DNA from: Spirochaetaceae bacterium
Lineage (GTDB): Bacteria > Spirochaetota > Spirochaetia > B11-G9
Length of the DNA: 38,975 bases
Direction of reading: 5' to 3'
NCBI GenBank assembly: GCA_015493635.1
Contig: WGCU01000002.1
Span: 1 to 38,975 of the forward strand
The notes beneath the pieces were generated by a model. That model worked only from the letters and a program-made list of their open reading frames with translations, made no database searches and was not told where the DNA came from. Below are positions 3,131-24,023 of this stretch, piece after piece; the first letter of the stretch is position 1, and each line of letters starts with the position of its first letter. The translations under genes were made by a program, and so were the position numbers.

Positions 3131-4729
3131 ATGAAACATGAAAAAAATGCAAAAAATGCAGAAGATATACAGGTACGTCTAAAACCTGTTCTGGGGATGA
3201 AACCCGGTATTTATCTAACGGTTCTGTACAGTTTTATTATCCTTCTCATCCTGTTTTTTATATTCGTTATTCCGGGTATAAAAAATAACGGAACAAAGTT
3301 TAACATTACCACAACACCGGAAGCTTCGGTGATTTTTGTTGATAACGTATATAAAGGAACATCTCCCGGATCAATTTTTGTTCCGAAAGGGCAACATACC
3401 ATTACTTTAAAAAAAGATTTCTTTAAAACTGCTGTGTTCAGAGAAAATGTAAAGGGAAGGATTTTCTTTACTCTCATTTTCCCCCGTACAAAGAAAATAA
3501 TCCAGAACATGCCGCTCATTGATCCTGAAGGTTTTTTGAAAAAACGGTATAAAGAGATCAGCGGCTATGCTCTTATCAACGATTATTACGAGGGATATCA
3601 GTATCCTCATCTTATTACACGGACTGTCAGGGAGTTTAACGAAGGAGCAGCACCCGGTAAGCTCCAGGAACTGTATAAATTTTTATACGCCATGAGATAT
3701 AATCTGGGAAGTAAAGATCTTTTTGATGATTATAGTGAAGCCATAAACTATCTGCAGCCGAAAAGTACTTCTGACGTTTCTGACCTGGAAAATGTTCGGT
3801 CCTTTTACCGGAAGCACGGTTTTTCAGATAAGGGACTGCTTCTGGCGTATGCTGCTTCTTTTCCAAAAAAAGCAGACGTATATTCAAAAGAACTCGATTC
3901 CCTTTTTAATGGTGTTATTGATTTAGAGCAAAAAGGCGCTGCGGCAGATCAGCAGCTGTCAGAAACCGCTCCGCTCACCTTTGGAGATTTTAAATTTCTC
4001 AAAGTTCCGGGAGGTACGTATACTGCCGGATTAACTTCCCTGGATAAGATTTCCTTTTTATCCGGCGGTGCCGGGGGCAATTTCCCCCACAGGGAAAGCG
4101 TCCAGGCTTTTTATATGCTGGAGTCAGAAGTAACCCGGGGACAGTACGCTTTGTTTCTTAATAATAATCCCCGATGGCGGAAGGATGCCCTTAAAGCACG
4201 GGTGAAAGATAATACCGTTACTGATGATTATCTGAAAGATTATACATCGGTACCCGGTGATGAACCGGTATCCGGGGTATCGTGGTACGCAGCCTCTGCT
4301 TTTGCCTCATGGCTCACTACACAGCTTCCTGCCCGGTTAAGCACTTTTGAAGTACGTCTACCGAGCGAGGCGGAATGGGAGTGGGCTGCCCGTTTGAACA
4401 GCAGAACAAATCCTGCAACTGTCTTTCTGCAAAACTCTGGTGACGGTCCCCTTCCCTCTAATTTCCAGCGGCAGGGTGCTCTCGGACTGGCGGATATGCT
4501 CGGGAATCTCTGGGAATGGTGTGATAATTACTATTTACCGGCAGATACCCTCTTCGACCGCTATGGAATGCAGAATACGGTGTATCAGGGTGCTGAAAAA
4601 GCGGTCCGGGGCGGAAGCTGGGCCAACGAAGCCCGGTCGGTTTCGGCCGTTACTCGGGGTTCCCAGGAACCTTCCTGGTGTACTCCTTTTCTCGGCTTCC
4701 GTGTGGTTCTCGTTAAAAAGGCTCAGTAA
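3131..4729 (+). CDS. Membrane-anchored PEGA and SUMF1/FGE-fold protein
   Basis: A 532-residue protein with a short basic cytoplasmic tail, a transmembrane segment (about 26-50), a PEGA-like beta domain (about 57-105), a helical middle (about 120-275) and a C-terminal formylglycine-generating-enzyme-like (SUMF1) domain (about 283-530). The SUMF1 domain is recognised by PVSGVSWYAASAFASWL, RLPSEAEWEWAAR, MLGNLWEWC and RGGSW...LGFR. The paired active-site cysteines expected after RGGSW in true FGE are absent (RGGSWANEARSVSAVTRG), so it is probably a binding or structural module rather than a sulfatase activator. Its stop overlaps the smpB start by one base (TAATG). The ATG at 3131 has only a distant AAGGA, and a promoter ends 8 nt upstream. 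Its function is unknown. Confidence 0.8.
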   Translation: MKHEKNAKNAEDIQVRLKPVLGMKPGIYLTVLYSFIILLILFFIFVIPGIKNNGTKFNITTTPEASVIFVDNVYKGTSPGSIFVPKGQHTITLKKDFFKTAVFRENVKGRIFFTLIFPRTKKIIQNMPLIDPEGFLKKRYKEISGYALINDYYEGYQYPHLITRTVREFNEGAAPGKLQELYKFLYAMRYNLGSKDLFDDYSEAINYLQPKSTSDVSDLENVRSFYRKHGFSDKGLLLAYAASFPKKADVYSKELDSLFNGVIDLEQKGAAADQQLSETAPLTFGDFKFLKVPGGTYTAGLTSLDKISFLSGGAGGNFPHRESVQAFYMLESEVTRGQYALFLNNNPRWRKDALKARVKDNTVTDDYLKDYTSVPGDEPVSGVSWYAASAFASWLTTQLPARLSTFEVRLPSEAEWEWAARLNSRTNPATVFLQNSGDGPLPSNFQRQGALGLADMLGNLWEWCDNYYLPADTLFDRYGMQNTVYQGAEKAVRGGSWANEARSVSAVTRGSQEPSWCTPFLGFRVVLVKKAQ

Positions 4730-5206: not shown

Positions 5207-5564
5207 TGGAGGTGCCGGGAGTCGAACCCGGGTCCTGATGGGCCAGCGCGAAATATCTACAGGCTTAGCTCTTATTTAAATTTCAAAGCAAACACGGTAT
5301 AAAAGCAAACCGGCTTCCTTTAAAGTCTGCTTAAAGTGTCCCGCGGGAATAACAGACCATTCCCGAAGCAAGCCCTGGTTTGTTACAGGCCCCCTGCCAT
5401 TTCAGAGCGTGAATGACAGGACCCGTCAGCCGAACTATGCGGCTAAAGCGAAATCTGCGTTATTATCTTCAGCAGTTAATTGTTTTGCCCAGTTTAAGGA
5501 GTTAGAACAGCTCCGCCTGCAACCCCGAACTGTACAATCCAACAGTCGAAACCCTTACACCCCC
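5207..5564 (-). ncRNA. ssrA: tmRNA (SsrA)
   Basis: About 358 nt on the minus strand. The 5' GGGGGTG (5564-5558) pairs with the 3' CACCTCC (5214-5208, one G-U pair) to form the alanyl acceptor stem. The T-arm reads GGGTTCGACTCCC, and the 5' part contains the typical TAAGGGTTTCGACTG. The discriminator A is followed by TTG, so CCA is not encoded. The tag frame occupies 5488-5435: starting at GCA it reads AKQLTAEDNNADFALAA then TAG, ending in the ALAA degron typical of SsrA tags. The exact resume codon is inferred. It is convergent with smpB, so a shared transcript is excluded despite the adjacency. Confidence 0.95.
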
Positions 5565-21935: not shown

Positions 21936-22742
21936 TCATCCTTGGAAATTATACTGGCAGAGATCTATTACCGTAAACCTGTTGTCAGCTCCCAGCTTGT
22001 TAAAAATATTGTAAAGATGGAGTTTGACTGTCGATTCCGAGATATTCAGCCTCTCAGCTATCTCTTTGTTACTTGCTTTATACTTTACAAGTACGCGGAG
22101 CACCCGTCCCTCAGCTGGCGTTATCTTTGCGCCTTTCAAATCATAGGGTATTTTTTCTTTTTCTATGGTATCTATTTTTGCCTGTATTGTTTTATAGTTT
22201 GATTTAAGATACCTATTTTCTCTAAAAAGTTGTTCATCCCGGTCAAAAATATCTTTCCAGATTGCCAGGATGAAAAGTATCATAAAAATTGAAAATTCAA
22301 GAAGCCCGTTTTTTAGGATAAAAACATGTGCGTTGTTAACATAAGCGGAGACCTGAGCCATAACAACAAAAAAAACGATAAGAAGAATATATTTAACCTT
22401 TTTATGAATATCAAAGTATCCATATTGCCGCGCAAGGAGCCAGCCCATGAAGAAAAGGCTTGGTCCGTACACTTCATTGAACGAAGTGAGTATATTGGCA
22501 ACACCGGTTAAGCTGATTGCCAGTACCTGCAGTAATTTCATTACTTTATTTTCAAAAAACATGCTCAAGTAGCCAGGAATAAAAAGGAGAAAATCAAGCC
22601 ACACATTCATTGCAAGAAGAGCCTCTCCGAAACTTGAACCATTATACATGTTTCCCAACAGATTCATGATAATGACGAACGTGCCGACCGTAGAGATAAG
22701 GAATCCCACCCTTTTCTGTATTGTGTCGATTCTGAATTTCAT
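21936..22742 (-). CDS. Membrane-embedded LuxR-type regulator
   Basis: A 268-residue protein. About six hydrophobic helices fill residues 10-160 (for example FLISTVGTFVIIMNLLGN, WLDFLLFIPGYLSMFF, ILLIVFFVVMAQVSAYV, SIFMILFILAIW). A charged, probably coiled-coil linker follows (about 162-195), then a LuxR-type helix-turn-helix (about 200-265: ITPAEGRVLRVLVKY, NKEIAERLNISESTVKLHLY). A membrane sensor fused directly to a DNA-binding domain would need to bind DNA at the membrane. The start is the ATG at 22742, which overlaps the upstream stop as ATGA with GGAGAGG upstream; a TTG at 22748 is the alternative. The partner gene upstream encodes an unknown soluble protein, probably part of the same pathway. 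Confidence 0.8.
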   Translation of the reverse strand: MKFRIDTIQKRVGFLISTVGTFVIIMNLLGNMYNGSSFGEALLAMNVWLDFLLFIPGYLSMFFENKVMKLLQVLAISLTGVANILTSFNEVYGPSLFFMGWLLARQYGYFDIHKKVKYILLIVFFVVMAQVSAYVNNAHVFILKNGLLEFSIFMILFILAIWKDIFDRDEQLFRENRYLKSNYKTIQAKIDTIEKEKIPYDLKGAKITPAEGRVLRVLVKYKASNKEIAERLNISESTVKLHLYNIFNKLGADNRFTVIDLCQYNFQG

Positions 22743-23263
22743 TGCCAAATACCTCTCCGAGCTTCTTCTATAGAGTAAATCTCAAACAGTTCATTATTCT
22801 GACATTTTGAAATTGTTGTTACCAGATTTTCTGACATCTCATTATAATCCCAGATGCCAAGTGCTACAGGGTTGTACTTACCTCTTTCAAGATCATGAGC
22901 ACGGTCTTTATTATAATTTGAGAGCATACACAACGCAAGGAGGCTGTTACTTGCATCGATAACATCTCTTTTCCCTGATGTGTAGTGTGTTACAGGGTGC
23001 AGCCTGCTGAAAACATTGTCATTATCAATCTCTCTATGAACAAATATTGTTTTTCCGATCTCTGTAAGAGAAAGAAGATAAAGTGACAGATGGCTGAATG
23101 AAACAATCTCCGCTTTGCGGGATTCTGCTATATAAGGTGTTGCTGCAATGAGTTTTGCAAGTTTGTTAGTAGACAGCCATTCTTTTTCAGCTATACCGTA
23201 ATTAAAAACGACAGAAATTTTGTTTACAAAATCGTCCCACTTTTTATCATCGAATTGAGTCAA
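22739..23263 (-). CDS. Unknown protein upstream of the membrane LuxR regulator
   Basis: A 174-residue soluble protein with no signal peptide, no membrane segment and no motif I recognise. Visible features are a mixed helical N-terminal half (KLAKLIAATPYIAESRKAEI), a central IFVHREIDNDNVFSRLHPVT segment, and a helical C-terminus. The start is TTG at 23263 with GAGGGGAG 8 nt upstream. It is translationally coupled to the LuxR-type gene through an ATGA overlap, so it probably modulates that regulator or shares its function. Its promoter carries four tandem 14-bp repeats, suggesting tight regulation. Confidence 0.7.
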   Translation of the reverse strand: MTQFDDKKWDDFVNKISVVFNYGIAEKEWLSTNKLAKLIAATPYIAESRKAEIVSFSHLSLYLLSLTEIGKTIFVHREIDNDNVFSRLHPVTHYTSGKRDVIDASNSLLALCMLSNYNKDRAHDLERGKYNPVALGIWDYNEMSENLVTTISKCQNNELFEIYSIEEARRGIWQ

Positions 23264-23302
23264 AATGGATACTCCCCTCTTGAAATATTAAATCTGTGTA
23301 TT

Positions 23303-23331
23303 ATTATAAACCGGATATGAACTTTTTGAAA
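23303..23331 (-). promoter_or_regulatory. Putative promoter of the unknown/LuxR-type operon
   Basis: On the minus strand, a perfect TATAAT (23303-23308) with a weak TTTCAA (23326-23331) 17 bp upstream. The weak -35 and the tandem repeats that cover it (23321-23376) are what one expects of an activator-dependent promoter. Confidence 0.45.
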
Positions 23332-23376
23332 TATACTTTTTTAAATAAACTTTTTTAATTTTACTCTTTATAATTG
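23321..23376. repeat. Four tandem 14-bp direct repeats in a promoter
   Basis: Units ACTTTTTGAAATAT (23321-23334), ACTTTTTTAAATAA (23335-23348), ACTTTTTTAATTTT (23349-23362) and ACTCTTTATAATTG (23363-23376) follow each other with no spacer. The ACTnTTT core is kept in all four. They cover the -35 and the upstream region of the unknown/LuxR operon promoter, and lie about 80 bp upstream of the Nudix promoter on the other strand. They are candidate binding sites for the LuxR-type protein or an unknown activator. Confidence 0.6.
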
Positions 23377-23453
23377 TTTTCATTGTAAGGTATTCTTGCA
23401 TAAAGTACATACAACCGTAGTATTAATTTTACTTAACTTTGCATAAATTTGGA

Positions 23454-23513: not shown

Positions 23514-24023
23514 ATGTTTAATGATGAAATGCTTCCTATTGTAACAGATAGCGGCACCGTTACAGGTAAAGCATCACGTACAGAGTGTCACAATGGATCT
23601 ATGATCCTTCATCCAGTTGTTCATATTCATCTGCTGAGAAATAGGATGCTATATCTTCAGAAACGAGCTTACACAAAAGACATTCAACCGGGGAAATGGG
23701 ATACTGCAGTAGGAGGACATGTTCAGTATGGAGATGAGCCTGTAGAAAGTGCCCTTCGTGAGGCTTATGAGGAACTAGGTATTACAGATGGTCTTAAACT
23801 CGAACTTATCATGACCTATGTATGGAGATCAGAGAGGGAACAAGAGTTTATCTACTGCTATAAAAGTAGTTTTCGCGATGCAGTATCAATAGATAATGAT
23901 GAAGTGATTGACGGAAGATTCTGGACACAGGAAGAAATAGAAAAAAATATTGACAGCGATATATTTACACCTAATTTTCGTGATGAATACAAAAAAATAC
24001 GAAGAAAACTTTTCCCTGTTTGA
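23514..24023 (+). CDS. Nudix hydrolase (IDI/YfcD-like)
   Basis: A 169-residue Nudix protein. The Nudix box is complete in residues about 67-89: G, five residues, E, seven residues, then REAYEELGI, giving the metal-binding glutamates. Nudix enzymes cleave nucleoside diphosphates linked to another moiety; the N-terminal GTVTGKASRTECH and HIHLLRNRMLYLQKRA resemble the isopentenyl-diphosphate-isomerase-like/YfcD subgroup, but the substrate cannot be assigned. GGAGA lies 6-7 nt before the ATG. It is monocistronic; its stop overlaps the TTGACA of the tRNA-Gly promoter. Confidence 0.88.
   Translation: MFNDEMLPIVTDSGTVTGKASRTECHNGSMILHPVVHIHLLRNRMLYLQKRAYTKDIQPGKWDTAVGGHVQYGDEPVESALREAYEELGITDGLKLELIMTYVWRSEREQEFIYCYKSSFRDAVSIDNDEVIDGRFWTQEEIEKNIDSDIFTPNFRDEYKKIRRKLFPV

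Follow-up and report, generated by a model that had tools for sequence, protein, structure and literature searches.

A 14-bp tandem array ahead of a LuxR-type operon in a Spirochaetaceae bacterium: candidate 5′ part of an RNA driven by a conserved upstream promoter

The window analysed here, the whole 38,975-nt stretch of a Spirochaetaceae bacterium contig, contains a 14-bp tandem array that we read, with moderate confidence, as the 5′ portion of an RNA carrying AAAAAGU repeats, which would be driven from an upstream promoter (P1) by a LuxR-type membrane regulator and serve as a binding platform. The sequence-level part of this reading comprises the conservation and geometry of P1, the terminators downstream of it, and the enrichment, spacing and strand bias of the motif; binding of P1 by the regulator, the start site and the function of the RNA form its inferred part. 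The membrane-anchored regulator from the operon would bind a dyad at 23408-23426 and recruit RNA polymerase to P1, and the transcript, starting at about 23375, would open with three to four AAAAAGU motifs at 14-nt spacing. In relatives, the P1 transcript would usually stop at an intrinsic terminator and yield a free small RNA, ~110-195 nt long, that carries one or more AAAAGU motifs. Since the window has no such terminator, its motif array would form the operon mRNA's leader and contain a second promoter (P2). The repeated single-strand motif would most likely act as a multivalent platform that is bound by an RNA-binding protein, probably not Hfq, or pairs with targets.

The array consists of four contiguous 14-bp units (23317-23372) between a NUDIX gene (23514-24023, plus strand), which forms the far flank of the intergenic region, and the ORF of a 174-aa protein. 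In the minus-strand register, towards the operon, the units read AAAGAGTAAAATTA, AAAAAGTTTATTTA, AAAAAGTATATTTC and AAAAAGTTCATATC. Three of the units are good, the outermost being weak (75%): unit 1 (23359-23372) contains AAAGAGT, units 2 (23345-23358) and 3 (23331-23344) contain AAAAAGT, and unit 4 (TTCAAAAAGTTCAT, 23317-23330) carries the -35 of P2. With a TRF score of 64 this is the top tandem array of the window, and Markov shuffles of the intergenic region gave an equal array of any period from 8 to 30 in at most 0.03% of trials, a figure to be read against the 78% AT content of the region, as AT-rich sequence yields A-tract motifs more easily than shuffles fully model. Between units, the core is 93% identical and the spacers 55%, and a double site at 0 mismatches occurs in the 3.27-Mb genome at the array locus only. 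The four tandem units described in the initial annotation are thus real and unique in the genome. Their ACTnTTT core is indeed shared and is better written as AAAAAGT, as read towards the operon on the minus strand, and “perfectly phased” applies to their spacing but not to the helix: 14 bp are ~1.33 turns, so the units do not lie on the same DNA face. The search for a regulon by the repeat, which had been suggested along with this description, revealed no other promoters marked by array-like sites, with 32 loose matches across the whole genome versus 35 for a reversed control. No 14-bp array was found upstream of distant homologs of the 174-aa protein (23-34% identity), and in a wider search of 395 genomes most one-mismatch matches fell within coding sequence. 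Intergenic AAAAGT arrays with 14-nt spacing and intrinsic terminators directly after them, but without P1, were seen in two other genomes (G068, locus L176, and G060, locus L182) and may belong to the RNA family as well, under a promoter other than P1.

Orthologs do not have the array as such in their upstream regions; common to these regions is instead the 19-mer TTAATACTANNGTTRTATG with a TANAAT hexamer after it. In the window, a genome scan, an alignment and a class-wide model converge on the 19-bp imperfect dyad TTAATACTACGGTTGTATG (23408-23426, minus strand) with the half-sites ATACTAC and GTTGTAT, which overlaps the -35 region of P1 and is followed at a near-fixed offset by the -10 hexamer TACAAT (23382-23387, minus strand). 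This dyad lies ~36 bp upstream of the array and is the best conserved feature of the region, though absent from the initial annotation. Searching 84,980 species genomes for exact occurrences of the 19-mer together with the -10 yielded 17 matches, 11 of them in Spirochaetes, and a 51-position sequence model recovered 12 strong P1 copies in nine of 395 class genomes (E ≤ 1.8e-7, the next match at E = 1e-4). G082 and G342 each have a further, diverged copy ahead of the same operon. Thirteen copies have readable downstream sequence, the G004 copy being excluded for its position at a contig end, and the distance from the dyad start to the -10 is 39 in ten of these, 40 in G001 and G082, and 41 in G342. 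We treat the dyad with its own -10, separate from the array, as the candidate conserved operator, and the dyad itself as a candidate LuxR-type binding site.

Not every P1 copy stands ahead of the operon. The operon of G066 has no P1 of its own, two copies being located away from it, while in G003 the sequence after P1 leads into the 3′ end of glnS, a convergent gene, with no operon downstream. P1 precedes other genes in two cases. At locus L083 (G001) an M20-type hydrolase gene follows at a distance of ~209 bp, with one AAAAAAGT in the leader, and at L104 (~4103-4590) it is found directly ahead of a small cysteine-bearing protein with an ICSCCKKIRD motif, both genes being named from their sequences; P1 may thus control a second gene in the L104 genome. 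Short 11-bp tandem repeats (AGGAAAAGGAC) are located immediately upstream of one G049 copy (L090). Ahead of the 174-aa gene pair in G012 and G037 (L006 and L008) there is a conserved, dyad-like stretch of different sequence, about GTCTACTTTTGTATACA, which a diverged regulator may use as its operator.

With an estimated transcript start at about 23375, the predicted P1 leader RNA of the window would span ~112 nt to the first codon (23264-23375, minus strand), and the interval to which the repeats had originally been assigned (23321-23376) would represent the first ~55 nt of this transcript; the array occupies about +1 to +60. Strong intrinsic terminators were detected on the sense strand in seven of the 13 P1 copies (scan from +1 to +220), namely twice in G049, twice in G066, and in G080, G082 and G342, and on the antisense strand within 220 nt of P1 in none of the 13. 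Given a background of 5.3% in random stretches of the loci, seven of 13 corresponds to P = 1.6e-6, and these terminators, placed at ~+107 to +187 and implying RNAs of ~110-195 nt, lead us to predict that P1 drives a small RNA. In the window, G003, G005, G007 and G001, no terminator was detectable over the same range, and the window leader is predicted to correspond to the terminated small RNA of the relatives, but without its terminator. An Rfam search returned no credible family match besides tRNA. Elsewhere, the window holds a tmRNA gene (5207-5564, minus strand) with the tag AEDNNADFALAA.

The motif of the array recurs in these RNAs. Downstream of P1, AAAAGT was observed 22 times versus 4.6 expected, with 0 antisense occurrences, which is the strongest excess, or among the strongest, of all hexamers; the other top-excess hexamers are mostly terminator stems and short shared stretches. 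Within the terminated RNA bodies it was found nine times (1.9 expected) and in six of the seven RNAs. AAAAG pairs at 14, 28 or 42 nt accounted for 13 of 24 (0.37 expected), for 10 of 21 when the window was left out (0.36 expected), and for six, all from G007 and G005, when G003 was removed as well (0.20 expected), and clear regularity at 14 nt is confined to the window's own genome (G000), G003 and the related pair G005/G007. The six AAAAGT units of G003 form two groups of three, spaced 14 or 13 nt (mostly 14), with cores that are 95% identical and spacers that are 34% identical. The A-rich motif region of G342 survives despite GC-rich flanks, and one of the two G049 copies (G049b) has no AAAAGT, only AAAAAGC.

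P2 (TTCAAA at 23325-23330, a 16-bp spacer and TATAAT at 23303-23308; 23303-23330, minus strand) sits inside the predicted P1 leader, and G005/G007 likewise have an internal P2. The promoter scan by itself is no better than chance for P2, which is conserved in two relatives. As it matches the consensus at 10 of 12 positions, its -35 is not especially poor, contrary to the first description; the array does abut this -35, but its last unit contains the hexamer instead of merely extending upstream from it. TATAATAATA and TTTCAA are invariant across G000, G005 and G007, and G005 and G007 have kept P2, its -35 and one adjoining AAAAAGT unit (unit 3 in the window). At the orthologous promoter, conservation of the repeat is limited to this single unit. 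The invariance, in three species, of the unit next to the P2 -35 leaves real weight on the array as a DNA operator of P2, where the LuxR-type regulator or another protein would bind the AAAAAGT repeats and activate or repress the operon, even if we regard this as rather unlikely overall. The direct contact of array and -35 agrees with such an operator, as does TTAAAAAAGT in G082, which is also present just upstream of the likely operon promoter. However, conservation at P2 covers one array unit only, reading of the sequence directly preceding the operon in G049, G080, G342 and G066 found no sense-strand AAAAGT, the six units of G003 have no operon after them, the 14-bp spacing is off helical phase, and the genome has no second array.

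The same evidence bears on the proposal that the array is an activator site in front of an operon with a LuxR-type DNA-binding protein. Such a protein is encoded by the second gene of the operon (GerE, E = 1e-13), but conservation points to the dyad, apart from the array, as the candidate operator, the predicted P1 start is located upstream of the array, and the relatives keep AAAAGT inside terminated small RNAs without P2 directly after. Judged from sequence, the activator interpretation is partly supported, with the role probably misplaced from the dyad to the array, and autoregulation via the dyad rather than the array is plausible. DNA-operator and RNA roles of the array could also exist side by side.

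The P1 RNA might instead be a cis leader or attenuator, in which read-through of the terminator sets operon expression and the AAAAAGU motifs are sensing sites. In G049 (two copies), G080, G082 and G342, P1 is indeed separated from the 174-aa gene by a terminator. On the other hand, two of the seven terminated copies (both in G066) are located away from the operon, no operon follows in G003, and the window and G005/G007 possess an internal P2, and we consider attenuation improbable. Slippage expansion of AT-rich sequence, or an UP-like element without motif-specific role, would suit a region of 78% AT and the ability of A-tracts upstream of a -35 to raise transcription, but is very improbable given that cores are kept while spacers diverge in two genomes and that sense-strand bias and spacing are strong.

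For the favoured reading of the array as part of a P1-driven RNA, the candidate activator is the 270-aa membrane protein of the operon (21936-22748, minus strand), with a C-terminal LuxR/GerE HTH domain (PF00196, E = 9.9e-14) and hydrophobic segments between residues 13 and 169. A close ortholog (at least ~43% identity) mostly coincides with P1 (G000, G001, G049, G066, G080, G082 and G342); in G005 it is known alongside P1 from a fragment, and in G004 and G007 contigs break at the regulator locus. There are two exceptions, G091 with a close ortholog and no P1 found, and G003 with P1 and no ortholog found. The recognition helix TVKLHLYN occurs in all seven aligned P1 genomes (G082 was outside the alignment) and in none of 15 homologs from genomes lacking P1; G091 nevertheless has it. 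This co-occurrence fits binding of P1 by the LuxR-type protein, and the agreement in the helix could also stem from shared ancestry alone. The first operon gene encodes the all-helical 174-aa protein (22739-23263, minus strand), for which a search of 59 genomes found homologs in 17, counting that of the window. Searches of Pfam and NCBIfam gave no family above cut-off (sub-threshold Fip1 only), and its structure model (pLDDT 85) had no match in the PDB with E ≤ 0.001. A paralog in the window's genome (L020, G000:C68:10440-10934) is followed by a membrane histidine-kinase-like protein, not LuxR.

Several known systems are similar in parts. ToxIN-like type III toxin-antitoxin loci share the order of promoter, repeat RNA, terminator and then a ~170-codon gene, but their RNAs consist of pseudoknot repeats longer than the 14-nt units described here, P1 RNA copies also occur without a protein gene, and a Pfam search of the 174-aa protein gave no ToxN-family match (sub-threshold Fip1 only). 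The GacA-Rsm system of Pseudomonas, with the GacA UAS and the GGA decoys of RsmX, RsmY and RsmZ (PMC4950607), likewise combines a LuxR/FixJ-family HTH regulator, a dyad at small-RNA promoters, several RNA genes per genome and RNA with a repeated short motif. It differs in the sequence and position of the dyad and in its motif (GGA versus AAAAAGU), and the regulator here is membrane-embedded, lacks a receiver domain and can have its gene next to that of the RNA. Compared with an Rsm/Csr decoy, the conserved P1 dyad is TTAATACTANNGTTRTATG and not the GacA UAS TGTAAG-N6-CTTACA, the window array holds no unpaired GGA, and on reading none of the P1 RNAs has GGA as its repeated element; as for the free terminated small RNA typical of Rsm, terminators follow seven of 13 P1 copies, and none was detected in the window. 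CrcZ of P. aeruginosa, an A-rich decoy RNA sequestering Hfq (PMC4063720, PMC3480352), also carries A-rich repeated motifs in a regulator-induced RNA, but its promoter and regulator are unrelated, and Hfq (PF17209) was detected in none of the 11 P1 genomes searched, several of them incomplete drafts, while it was found in controls including E. coli. Hfq is therefore unlikely as the RNA partner, and as defining features of both GacA-Rsm and CrcZ were looked for and not found, we claim membership in neither. The 270-aa protein, with a GerE domain and hydrophobic segments in one protein, resembles the one-component transmembrane transcription regulators, which combine a DNA-binding domain with several membrane segments and are enriched in Spirochaetota according to a survey (PMC10269533) that mentions neither LuxR nor GerE in its main text; in contrast to these, the regulator here is linked to a small RNA by prediction. 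A literature search on small RNA and LuxR in spirochaetes gave nothing specific at title and abstract level.

Underneath the array there is likely an unlisted RNA family. As a tentative and, at present, doubtful extension, this may be a spirochaete small-RNA family under a membrane LuxR-type regulator whose AAAAAGU repeats titrate an RNA-binding protein, with the 174-aa protein as a possible partner. Little is known of regulatory RNAs in free-living spirochaetes, and the P1 genomes are without detected Hfq. If true, a membrane DNA-binding protein would be directly linked to a small RNA, and a countable repeated motif in a regulator-linked RNA would offer a direct route to its RNA-binding partner.
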